Part shown: piece by piece, positions 732 through 38,350 of the stretch
Layout: each line of letters begins with the position of its first letter
Position numbering within the stretch: the first letter of the stretch is position 1
Origin: Nitzschia sp. pyKryTriq1
Lineage: Eukaryota > Bacillariophyta > Bacillariophyceae > Bacillariales > Bacillariaceae
Direction: 5' to 3'
NCBI GenBank assembly: GCA_956465555.1
Contig: OY101116.1
Span: 1,240,001 to 1,304,000 of the forward strand
Length of the DNA stretch: 64,000 bases
The notes under the pieces: model-generated
Seen by the model: the letters and a program-made list of their open reading frames with translations, nothing else
The model's database searches: none
Told to the model about the DNA's origin: nothing
Translations under genes and position numbers: made by a program

Positions 732-2587
732 ATGCCTAGCACGAACTTATCGAGGGGTGGTGGGCTCAGCCCTCCCCCCGAATCGGAAACGATCTACAAG
801 ACCCACGAGGGAGAACACAGTGGAGACTTTAGCGACCAGAACCTCAAGCTTACTCGCCAGACGTTCATCTTTGCCATGTGCGCTGCCGTGAACTCGTGTA
901 ATTTGGGTTACGATGTCGGTGTCAGTACACATGCCAGTGCTCTGATTCAGACTGATATGGGGCTGACCGATGTGCAACGAGAACTCTTTATTGGAAGCTT
1001 GAATTTCTGGTCGATATTCGGATCCTTGTTTGCACATTGGATCTGCGATCGATATGGACGTCGCCATTCCTTCAAGGTTGCGGCTGTTGGATTTATTATC
1101 GGACTTGTCATTATGGCTGCTGCTGGGAATTACACCGTACTTATGGTGGGCAGAGTATTTGTCGGCTTTGGCGTAGGTTAGTACTTTGGTCCAACAAGTG
1201 TTATGCTTGTGACAAGAGAGCAATCTCATTTTTATGAAATGAACTCTTCGGTTTTGGCGTACCTAGGTTTCGGACTGGCAATTGATCCGCTTTATATTTC
1301 AGAGATTTCTCCAGCTGCTCACCGTGGTCGGTTGGTAACCTGGTCTGAAATCGCCTTGAATGTCGGAATTGTTCTGGGATTCTTCTCGGGTATTCTCTTT
1401 TACAACTTGGACGATAACGTGGAATGGCGAGTCATGTTCGCCATGGGATGCATCCTACCCATTATCATGATCATATTGGTCCAGACAGTAATGCCAGAAT
1501 CGCCGCGTTTCCTTGTCGACAAGGGTCAAATTGCAGAAGCCAAGGAAATCTTGATAAAGTTGTATCCCGAAGGTAAGAAGAAACAAAACGAGGAAATGGC
1601 GTTGTACCATCTGAAGACCAATGGAAAGACTTACTGTTATTCAATTTTCTACTAGGATTCAATGTGGATCCTATTGTGCGGGACATCCAGGAAGCGATAG
1701 AACGTGAACGCATTGCGGAACAAGCGGTTGGTTGGCACGTGATCATGTTCCCGACCCCTGCGATCCGTCGAATGTTGATTGTCGGTGTAGTCACAGCTAT
1801 TTCACAGCAAGCTGTGGGTATTGACGCGATTCAGTATTATCTTAATGATGTCTTGGCGGAGTCTGGAATCGAAAGCGAAAAGGCGAGACTTGGTATCCTC
1901 ATGATGCTTGCCATCATCAAGTTAGTATTCATTGTCGTGGGTGGTTACTTCTTTGATATCCGTGGAAGAAAGCCACTTTTCTTCATTTCGTTGGTTGGTA
2001 GGTCGCATGCAGTGTGCTGAAGTCGTGCATATGTGTGCCGTTGCCGTGTTAGGGCGTCAATCTCAATGTGTCCATGTGTTTCTCTCTCAGGTATGATCGG
2101 GGCATTGGTCCTAACTGCTTTCAGCTTTAACAGCGACGGGGCCAAAAGTGTGGATTGGGCCATCACTGGGCTTGCACTGTACCTAGCATTCTTCAGTCTT
2201 GGAGTGGGACCTGGAGCGTGGCTGATTCCCTCGGAAATTTTCGCTACCAGTATTCGTGCGAAAGCCATGTCCATAGCAACCTTTTTTAATCGAATCACCG
2301 CAACAGTCATGGCGTCCACATTCTTGTCCACTGTCAACGCGATTGGTTGGGGTAGCTTCTTTTTCTTGCTCGCTGGAATTTGTGGCGTATTCATTATCTT
2401 TTTCTTCTTCATGCTTCCTGAAACGAAGGGACGCTCACTGGAAGATATGTCGGTCTACTTTGCAGAACTTACCAACGACACCTCGCTCCTGGAGGCAGAA
2501 CAGAAGATTATTCAGCAACGAACTTCGCCTGCAGTAGAAATGACACCAACGCCTGGGGGGCGTAAGAAAGATGGTCAAATGGCTTAG
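732..2587 (+). CDS. MFS sugar porter (GLUT/inositol-transporter type), four exons
   Basis: Exons by splice-site reading: 732-1176, 1267-1572, 1656-1997 and 2091-2587. Introns are 83-93 bases, all GT-AG, and the spliced frame is exactly 530 codons (529 aa). Sugar-porter signatures are all present: DRYGRR after TM2, RGRLVTWSEIALNVG in TM4-5, MPESPRFL before the central loop, QQAVGIDAIQYY in TM7 (family QQxxGxNxxxYY with Asn changed to Asp), and PETKGRSLEDM after TM12. This predicts a 12-TM H+-coupled or facilitative transporter for a hexose, inositol or similar polyol. The substrate cannot be read from sequence. The ATG at 732 is preferred because the upstream frame is not conserved-looking and starts without ATG. 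Confidence 0.9.
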
Positions 2588-33697: not shown

Positions 33698-35737
33698 ATG
33701 ATGATCCTTCCCGTGTTCGTGATGCTCAGTAGCTTCTTCTCCGCCGTCAGTGGCGAAACAAACTACACTTATGGTGTCGATGTGGTATGCATGTTTTTGT
33801 TAAAATTCGGCATGATACTCGGCCGCCTCGACCAAGTAGTGTCTACCGCCACCATCGACCACTCACATTCTTTCTTGCTGTTTAGTCATATCCAATGCAT
33901 CATCGTAAGGTGTCGAAAAACTATGACTGGTTACCGCACAACGTAGACCCATCCATTCCTACACCGGAGGAGTACAAGGATATGCCGGTGCAGCGGATGG
34001 GGGACAAACAAGCCTTTTATGATAATATGATCCAAGGGTGTGTAGGACATTATGCGAAAAAGGGATCCAGATGCCTTATGAATGAAGAAGATCGCATTGC
34101 CATGTCGTTGAGGCAACCCAAAGGCATGGTGAACTACACAAAGTACGGATTTACAAAAATTCGTGCACCGGACGCTGTGTTCAACTTGATCAAGGAATTT
34201 TGGGAGCAAAATAAGGACAGGCAGTCTATCGAATCATGGCCACCGGGAAATTCATATGTCAATCATTGGGAAGCTCCGACGTACTTTACTAGCGTAGATG
34301 ATGCCAGTTTGAAGGGTGGAGGCTATGTTTTGAAGCAAAAGATTTGGAACGCAGCACGAGACACTATTTCGGAATGGACGGGGCAACAGCTGGCGGAATG
34401 CAGTCTCTACGGGATTCGTATTTACAAAGAAAATGCGGTCTTGGCTCCTCATGTGGATCGTTTACCGTTGGTTTCTTCTGCAATCATCAATGTGGATCAG
34501 GATGTCGACGAACCGTGGCCTTTGGAAGTGATCGGGCATGACGGAATTGCGCATAATATTACAGTGAGTGGCAAAAATGGAACAAGCTAGGATGCAAAGG
34601 TTTCCATGCAAGTGGGATGATTCGAGGGGTGTGTTTACTTGTTCTTTTCGCTCATTTCTGTTGTCTCTATCTTAGATGGTACCTGGCGATCTTGTTCTAT
34701 GTGAGTTCAGATCGGCGGCGTCGAGACCTTTACTCCATTATATTATGACTATTTTTCATTCTCACAATCTCTTTAATGACAGACGAGTCGCACTCTATCT
34801 TGCACGGCCGCCCATTTCCTCTAAAGGGACGTTTCATGGCGAATATCTTCGTGCATTTTGAACCAGTAAGTACGGACGGAAGGCTCGAGAGTGGTATGGA
34901 TTGGCTGTGGTGCCGGTACATGCTAGTAATGCATCCACGTTTTCCTAACAAGCTTGGTCGATGATTCAATCGTTCGTTCCTATTCCACTGATTTTTCCTT
35001 CAGATCGGTAAGTTTTGTTACATTGTGATACTGCTGGAAGTGGGCCATCATCTCCTTACCCCATGCCCTCGGATAAACTGAAATCCATTTTGTAGGCCCG
35101 GTTGGTGAAGAAATTGCACTCGATGCCGACCTTCCACGATATGTGTTGAGAGGATCAGAGCAGGAGAAGGTTTGGATGCGAGAGCACCCAGAAGGATATA
35201 AGCTGCACCACTCGGCAGAAATTGCAACGGGATCGACCCTCTTGCACAAGGCAGCAATGTCGGGCAACACGGAAGAAGTAAAGAGGTTGTTAAAGGAGAA
35301 AGTTCACATGGTCAATGTACGCGACAGTAATGGTTGGACGCCTCTTCATGTAAGTGATTGGAAACTTGGACTTGTAGATACGGTGCACCATATCTACTAG
35401 TGTGTGTGTGTTTGTGTGTGTCCCTTTCTACATCATCTGAAGAGATGACTCACTGCGCTTTTTGTCACCACGCTCGTTCTTCTTGGTCGGAATTTTCCAG
35501 GAGGCCGCCCGTTTGGGTGATGCGGAGATTGTGCAGCACTTGTTAGACAACGGCGCCGACATTAATTCGCGCACAAAGGAAAATGAAGCTGGTGCTTCGG
35601 GTGGCACAGTGCTTTGGTGGGCCCTGGAATTCCATGACAAAGACACGGAGGTTGTGAAGCTTTTGAAAAGCGCTGGAGCGAAGAACATTTCACCGCACGC
35701 ACAAGTGGAAGGTGAAGAAGTATGGTACGAAGAATAG
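33698..35737 (+). CDS. Secreted/ER prolyl 4-hydroxylase-like oxygenase with ankyrin repeats, copy A
   Basis: Seven exons: 33698-33784, 33886-34563, 34676-34700 (25 bases), 34783-34865, 35004-35007 (4 bases), 35096-35349 and 35501-35737, giving 455 aa. Residues 1-19 are a signal peptide. The 2OG-Fe(II) oxygenase core has HVDRLPLVSSAIINV (HxD iron ligands), PGDLVLYESHSILHGRPFPLKG (distal His, 2OG-binding basic residue) and MANIFVHFEP. The C-terminus has two to three ankyrin repeats (GSTLLHKAAMSGNTEEVKRLL; NGWTPLHEAARLGDAEIVQHLLDNGADIN). The 4-base exon ATCG restores frame between FEP and PVGEE. A donor at AGT G|GTATGG in the preceding exon is a less likely alternative. Protein hydroxylation in the secretory path is inferred. 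Confidence 0.85.
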
Positions 35738-36443: not shown

Positions 36444-38350
36444 ATGAAGATGAGTCAACGAGCGCTTTCCGCTGTATGCTTATTATTGGCGAGTCTCTCC
36501 GCGACAGAAGCTGGATTTTGGAGCAAAAACGATGAGAGGAAAGCAGCCGAAACAATCATCGATGAAGACGCCGTCTTCCACGAAGACGAGGGCCCTAAAG
36601 CGGAGTATGGCGTCGACGTTTCCTTTCCCATTCATTACGCCCAGGTCTCCACCAATTATGCGTGGCTGCCTCACAATCAATATCCGAATGTTGCGGCTCC
36701 TCCGGAGTACAAGGACATGGTAGTTCAGCCGCTGGGCAATCGCCAACAGTTTTACAAGGACTTTTTGCAGTCATGCCGGGACCACTTTGGCGCCAAGGGA
36801 ATTCGTTGCACACAAAATGAGCTGGATCGTGTGGCCATGAGCTTGCGTCAGCCTCAGAGCATGACGAATTATACAGATATTGGCTTCAAGAGTAAGTGTT
36901 CGTAAAGTACATTTCTTTGTAGTGAAGAACGCTGTGGTTGCCTGATATTATGTCTAGGTGTGTACCTTTTCGAAACATGGTGCTCTGACATACAATTGTT
37001 CTTGCGAAACGCTTGATATAGAAATTAAGGCCCCGGCGCACGTGTGGTCTCTCATCAAAGATTTCTGGGAGAAGAATAAGGACAAACAAACGTTAGAGAA
37101 CTGGGGTATTGGTAACACGTATACAAATAACTGGGAGTCGCCAACCTACATGATCAGTGTCGAGGATCAAGGCTTACGAGGAGGTGGTCGAGCGCTGAAG
37201 AAGGCAATCTGGGATGCCGCACGAGACACTATTTCGGAGTGGACTGGGCAAGAGTTGACTGAGTGCAGTTTGTATGGAATTCGTGTTTACAAAGAAAATG
37301 CCGTTCTGGCGACTCATGTGGACCGTCTCCCGCTCGTATCGTCGGCCATCATTAACGTAGCCCAAGATGGTAAGTTTCTTATGGTTGCATGAGCTCTGAT
37401 AAAGCTGTGACCAAAATGGATGAAGTCTCATTTTTTGTGTTCGTGCTACTCCATTCATTCAGTGGATGAGCCATGGCCCCTTGAAGTGTATACGCACGAC
37501 GGTAGAGCCGTGAATGTCACAATGGAGCCCGGAGACATGGTCTTGGTACGTTCCTTTATGCCTCAATCTTCAGCGCACCATCACATTTTGATCACTGTTC
37601 TCATGTTGTTTGTTTGTTTGTTTGTTTTTTGTGTTGTCCCCTAGTACGAATCACATAGTGTTTTGCACGGTCGTCCTTTCCCCCTCAAAGGTCGCTACAT
37701 GGCCAACATTTTCATCCACGTAAGTCTGGTTTTTGTTTCCTCTCTTTGGCCTTCTCCGGTGTGACTGACTTCGACCAACTTTATGCCTTGAAATGTTCTA
37801 CTCCTGTTTATAGTTTGAACCAAATGGACATTCATTGCGGCACAATGCGGAACAAGCTCGTGGACTAGAGGATGCGCACGGCAAATACCGGGATTCCCTT
37901 GCCCGAGGATTTGGTGGGCATGAAAATGATGCTGATGGACTTCCGTCATACATTGTGCGTGGAACGCCCGAAGAAGCCCATTGGAGACAGATGCACCCAG
38001 GTGGCGCGAGATCAAAGCGAAACTCGGCTACGACAGGGTCCCAACAAACCATTGCTCACTTGGCTGCCCAAAGCGGAAATGTAGAACAGCTGAAATGGGA
38101 ACTGAAAACGAACAAGGATGTGGTCAAAGCTAAAGATGAAAATGGGTGGACTCCGCTACATGAAGGTGCAAGAGCGGGGCACGTGGACGTGGTGAAGTAC
38201 CTGGTTGAGAATGGTGCCGACGTTAATGATACGACAGGTGAAGGTGGAGGAACGGCCTTGTACTGGGCCAAGAAGAAGCTGGAACCTGAGCATCCTGTGA
38301 TCGAATACCTGGAAAGTTTGGGTGCCTTGGATGCCGGACCAGACTTGTAA
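36444..38350 (+). CDS. Secreted/ER prolyl 4-hydroxylase-like oxygenase with ankyrin repeats, copy B
   Basis: Five exons: 36444-36891, 37022-37369, 37463-37545, 37645-37719 and 37814-38350, giving 496 aa. It begins with a signal peptide (LLLASLSATEAG). The oxygenase core is nearly that of copy A: HVDRLPLVSSAIINVAQDVDEPWPLEV, PGDMVLYESHSVLHGRPFPLKG, MANIFIHFEP. A linker (GLEDAHGKYRDSLARGFGG) then leads to ankyrin repeats (IAHLAAQSGNVEQLKWEL; NGWTPLHEGARAGHVDVVKYLVENGADVN). It is in tandem with copy A, yet none of its four introns is in the same position. The closest is at LVL|Y, one base away from copy A's. A (TTTG)n run lies in intron 3. Confidence 0.9.

Follow-up and report, generated by a model that had tools for sequence, protein, structure and literature searches.

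A predicted four-nucleotide exon in an oxygenase-like/ankyrin gene of the diatom Nitzschia sp. pyKryTriq1

Human MPC1 exon 2 is reported as a constitutive microexon of 4 bp, which was shown experimentally (PMC9929638), and the plant genes APC11 and VPS55 are described to carry 1-nt microexons that are supported by RNA-seq and RT-PCR (PMC8831610). In a study on worms and mouse neuroblastoma cells, exon definition across microexons is held to be sterically infeasible; recognition is proposed to act across the intron instead, aided by the U1 component PRP-40, a need that a short flanking intron relieved (PMC8378409). Phaeodactylum introns are reported to average 142 bp, and exon skipping as well as abundant intron retention are described for this diatom (PMC5859163). 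Our literature search for microexons or very short exons in diatoms or stramenopiles, outside of which most subscription papers fall, gave no paper on such exons in diatoms among the matches listed, judged by title and opening of the abstract, and the one diatom paper listed for splicing terms does not use the word microexons; for protists, the microexon literature includes Creolimax, a relative of animals, among the matches listed.

The window analysed here is a 64-kb stretch of DNA (C2:1240001-1304000) from a diatom genome of 40.65 Mb in 20 contigs, which was searched along with it. The four bases ATCG at positions 35004 to 35007 of the window are, as predicted from sequence, very probably an internal coding exon of an oxygenase-like/ankyrin gene. 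The locus reads GAACCA(34865)/GTAAGT ... CTTCAG/ATCG(35004-35007)/GTAAGT ... TGTAG/GCCCGG(35096), which agrees to the letter and position with what an initial annotation of this DNA had given for ATCG and for both exon ends. Exon 4 ends with CATTTTGAACCA at 34865, followed by GTAAGT, and exon 6 begins with GCCCGGTTGG at 35096, preceded by TTTTGTAG. Joining 34865 directly to 35096 gives FEPARLVKKLHSMPTFHDMC, where the frame is indeed off by one base, as had been claimed, and meets a stop 17 residues on, leaving a product of 308 residues. With ATCG included, the junction reads FEPIGPVGEEIALDADLPRYVLRGS and the frame stays open into the ankyrin repeats, giving a protein of 455 residues. Microexons are internal exons of about 1 to 30 nt with GT-AG introns on both sides, a size class into which ATCG falls with its 4 nt. 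The splice sites at ATCG, how strong they are, the reading frame, and how unusually good the arrangement is are shown by the present analysis; other joins that keep the coding frame exist as well, with lower scores.

Ratchet points leave no bases in the mature product. Those described in Drosophila resemble the locus in that an acceptor and a donor almost touch and the interval is removed in two steps, but they are juxtaposed sites within long introns (PMC8605326), whereas here 4 bases stay between the sites and the interval measures 230 nt; a recursive-splicing ratchet point, with its zero-length exon in a long intron, was rejected on these grounds. MPC1 exon 2 is likewise of 4 bases, not a multiple of three, and required for the frame. 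Unlike it, where the flanking introns are described as long and a 67-bp upstream region as needed (PMC9929638), the diatom exon is predicted from DNA, lies between introns of 138 and 88 nt, and belongs to an unrelated gene and lineage. The exons of APC11 and VPS55 are similar in being ultra-small, overlooked by annotation, absent from some relatives and present in others, and followed by a good donor (GTRAGT), but they are reported to be conserved across land plants and proven by RNA (PMC8831610), whereas the diatom exon is a single copy in one genome. The initial annotation had placed four bases near the limit of known splicing, a view that the 1-nt plant exons and the experimentally shown human 4-bp exon contradict (PMC8831610, PMC9929638).

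The gene occupies 33698 to 35737 on the plus strand. Exon 1 with the start codon (33698 to 33784) is taken from our gene model, exon 2 with the bulk of the oxygenase-like half (33886 to 34563) from homology to the sister gene, and exon 3 (34676 to 34700, 25 nt, ATGGTACC...CTAT) from its splice sites and the same homology. Exon 4 (34783 to 34865) has a 3' end that codes for ...VHFEP, and ATCG would then supply the codon ATC and the first base of GGC, for Ile-Gly. Exon 6 (35096 to 35349), with the linker and the first ankyrin repeats, and exon 7 (35501 to 35737), with ankyrin repeats through to the stop codon, are both given by the gene model and a Pfam ankyrin match. The gene model errs in splitting the gene, where the first part runs beyond exon 2 to 34590, the second starts with an ATG at 34776 instead of at 34783, and exon 3 is missed. 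The sister gene (36444 to 38350, plus strand; gene model and homology) follows with five exons and reads FEPNG without interruption, and further family members were found on C2, C3, C8, C9, and C10 by a protein search of the genome.

Of the label prolyl-hydroxylase-ankyrin, which the gene had been given initially, the second part stands, with ankyrin repeats over the Pfam cut-off (PF12796, E = 8.1e-19; PF00023, E = 4.9e-19). The first part was not confirmed, as three family members gave no Pfam oxygenase match at E values up to 10, with program filters that drop most weak matches. A PDB profile search of the oxygenase-like half returned no match at E up to 5, and a single-sequence PDB search returned only CmnC, which we take to be a 2OG oxygenase, at the chance level of E = 1.9. 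The metal-binding motif of 2OG-Fe(II) oxygenases is HxD...H. In the family alignment, H190 and D192 are nearly invariant and H243 is invariant, and because HxD and the downstream H are conserved, it is plausible that this half is a divergent 2OG oxygenase.

The 25-nt exon 3 is a second small exon of the same gene, clear from homology to the sister. A paralog at C3:1479078-1487770 has a predicted internal exon of 26 nt (locus positions 1666 to 1691, minus strand) coding for YESGSLLHG, which falls in the corresponding region of the protein. Before YES[HG]S, the microexon gene (34700/34783) and a paralog on C3 have their intron in phase 1; the sister (37545/37645) and another C3 paralog have it in phase 0, as if it had slid by one base or been mis-modelled. 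In the paralog at C8:1943547-1947938, the sequence SLYGIRSLYGIRIY doubles SLYGIR in frame within the conserved core, which is either real or a model artefact. Elsewhere in the genome, the silicon-transporter family (PF03842) has eight matches, seven with E < 1e-260 and one with 2.4e-134, four of which lie within about 42 kb (C1:275839-317295) and a fifth at C1:79892. As this family is linked to diatoms, these matches make a diatom source almost certain. Rfam and tRNA scans of the 64-kb window gave no matches.

Our gene finder combines a codon-phase Markov coding score, donor and acceptor weight matrices, and an intron length table, and was trained iteratively on 148 kb, made up of the window, the paralog loci, and 40 kb of flanks. 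The seed was eight introns, split equally between this gene and the sister and excluding those being tested. Neither the matrices nor the length table saw introns touching 34840 to 35100; the gene did contribute to the coding and background tables. Training resulted in 43 introns, all of them predicted, with a median of 99 nt and a range of 81 to 164 nt. Measured against these 43, the acceptor before ATCG (CTTCAG, 9.7 bits, 72nd percentile) and the donor after it (GTAAGT, 10.1 bits, 74th percentile), which the initial annotation had called strong, are good sites. The upstream intron (34866 to 35003, 138 nt, GTAAGT...CTTCAG) opens with a donor of 9.5 bits, and the downstream intron (35008 to 35095, 88 nt, GTAAGT...TTGTAG) closes with the weak element of the arrangement, an acceptor of 3.6 bits (9th percentile), which is common to the three single-intron rivals. 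With the microexon intervals withheld from the splice and length tables, the gene model calls exons at 34776-34865, 35004-35007, 35096-35349, and 35501-35737. The model makes the same calls on the separate locus L001, and the 4-nt exon is still called with a flat length prior.

To compare splice forms, we enumerated the in-frame, stop-free joins between exon 4 and exon 6 that use one intron, or two introns enclosing an exon no longer than 120 nt (donors 34840 to 35109, acceptors 34920 to 35159, introns of 45 to 500 nt). The microexon form scores best overall at -2.5 bits, followed by the same microexon with another second acceptor at -8.0 bits. On frame, splice-site strength, and intron length, the 4-base microexon that had been put forward initially is the best reading of the interval. 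The 13-nt microexon that donor 35016 would give trails by 15 bits and was rejected. Single introns from donors 34956 (-16.9 bits, the best of them), 34893 (-19.0 bits), and 34869 (-20.7 bits) are in frame, yet were likewise set aside at 14 to 18 bits behind, the lead over the best being 14 bits. When intron length is weighted flat, the microexon form scores -5.0 bits against -12.2 (34893), -13.9 (34869), and -16.5 (34956), a lead of 7 bits. The flat-length run predicts 52 introns, of which 10 are longer than 164 nt (up to 386), so that a long single intron is possible and the range of 81 to 164 nt is in part a product of the length table. When the 43 introns were bootstrapped 1,000 times, the margin over donor 34893 had a 95% range of 9.8 to 20.1 bits, and of 1.4 to 10.9 bits with flat length, where it is zero or less in 7 of the 1,000. 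The branch-point motif was too weak in 42 introns to discriminate.

The predicted peptide FEP-IG-PVGEE, which the initial annotation had compared with the sister alone, fits the wider family, as a paralog at C2:408666-408866 reads FEPIGP and 8 of the 10 aligned close paralogs have G as the second residue after FEP (counted without the C10 gene and the weaker hits L021-L024). The exceptions are FEPAA and FEVLPS, and the eight include one FQPTG and one YEPVG. A profile of nine paralogs, built without the C8:1943547 paralog (YEPVG) and the distant C10 gene, gives 210.4 bits for donor 34893, 209.2 for the microexon form, 207.3 for donor 34869, 206.4 for donor 34956, and 175.5 for skipping, which thus costs 34 bits. 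Protein homology thus argues against skipping but hardly separates the in-frame forms, which leaves the decision to the splice sites. Compared with the sister by the NG86 method, dN is 0.30 before the junction and 0.60 after it, with no usable dS and hence no ratio.

A single intron of 202 nt from the weak donor at 34893 (GTG/GTATGG), with ATCG intronic and the protein reading FEPVSTDGRLESGPVGEE, is quite improbable. This donor, which the initial annotation had named as a rival at about 34892, does exist, keeps the frame without a stop, and has the top profile score of the tested forms, while the linker beyond FEPxG varies in length within the family, so the protein side is compatible with it. 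It is disfavoured by the long intron and by a donor of only 3.1 bits (2nd percentile of the 43); it would also put S, not G, after FEPx and make a coincidence of the two good sites that flank ATCG. Extremely unlikely is a single intron of 226 nt from a donor 4 bases downstream of the exon 4 end (34869, TAA/GTACGG), a simple in-frame form that was absent from the initial annotation. It adds exactly four bases and reads FEPVSPVGEE, again with S in place of G, but its donor has 1.4 bits (2nd percentile) and would need to outcompete the overlapping CCA/GTAAGT of 9.5 bits.

The microexon arrangement is hard to obtain by chance. Within the interior of the 230-nt interval, we counted frame-fixing, stop-free exons of 1 to 30 nt with at least 75 nt on each side and a sum of acceptor and donor as good as the observed 19.8 bits. 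An equally good exon appeared in 1 of 20,000 dinucleotide shuffles and in none of 3,198 noncoding and 7,282 all-sequence stretches, which overlap and are non-independent. The pattern YYYYYCAGNNNNGTRAGT occurs seven times on both strands of the 40.65-Mb genome, compared to 19 times for its reversed control, and at that density the chance of meeting one among about 77 usable positions is roughly 7 in a million. For TTTTNCAGN{1,12}GTAAGT, there are 8 genome matches against 39 for the reversed control. Close acceptor and donor sites are rare and not enriched in this genome, and a genome-wide excess of tiny exons was rejected, as both patterns lie below their controls, perhaps by avoidance or only through base composition. 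The gene model calls a tiny exon at none of the 8 TTTTNCAGN{1,12}GTAAGT places and a 4-nt exon at none of the 6 other YYYYYCAGNNNNGTRAGT places, indicating that the YYYYYCAGNNNNGTRAGT pattern by itself is insufficient for an exon; at this locus, the frame demands one. The frame break might instead be an assembly error or a recent inactivating change, with the interval as one 230-nt intron. A single base would suffice to restore the frame, but both halves of the protein remain close to the family and the well-spaced good sites would be left to chance, at the rate of the shuffles, making this very unlikely.

For the microexon form, we propose that introns of 138 and 88 nt, both GT-AG and 4 bases apart, are both removed to give HFEP-I-G-PVGEE. 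Their short length would permit recognition across the intron (intron definition), which would agree with the proposal for worm and mouse microexons (PMC8378409), and the two introns would leave sequentially. After the loss of either, the four bases would lie in a normal-sized exon, so that the two sites would never need to be bound simultaneously. As ATCG contains the last three exon bases of the donor and the first exon base of the acceptor, the site that remains would keep its sequence. An open frame of 580 residues in the genome has two FF-domain matches over the cut-off, which would fit a PRP40-like protein. Since skipping breaks the frame and costs the protein its ankyrin repeats, ATCG would be included mostly constitutively.

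The microexon may also be real but optional, a regulated switch that is compatible with the splicing proposed above, though this is unlikely. Inclusion would then give the ankyrin form and skipping or retention a short oxygenase-like form. The stop after skipping, at 308 residues, does fall behind the oxygenase-like half, and exon skipping and intron retention are both reported in Phaeodactylum (PMC5859163); the good sites, however, argue for steady use, and skipping requires an intron of 230 nt, longer than all 43.

None of the 10 close paralogs (eight models, the sister model, and one partial open frame) has an intron just after FEP, and none has the microexon in its model or open frame. The nearest family intron is that of the sister, three codons upstream (H/FEP). 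With both introns missing from every close paralog model, the simplest account is that this copy probably gained the two of them, 4 bases apart, after gene duplication. A genome search that skips simple repeats and very common words found no second copy of either intron, so that no introner-like source is visible and such an origin was rejected. Viral and prokaryote contigs contained no relatives. There is a slight possibility that this young, copy-specific, frame-deciding 4-nt exon, arisen from two gains, could switch an oxygenase-like protein between forms with and without ankyrin repeats.

Exons of this size are rare but already known in plants and people, and the locus very probably adds a neat further case without adding a new mechanism; its likely splicing is ordinary, its size and lineage are unusual. 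This gene is one that automatic annotation will probably cut or mis-join. Confirmation by RNA would establish an ultra-small exon in a diatom, and would indicate how two short introns gained side by side can create one without exon definition.
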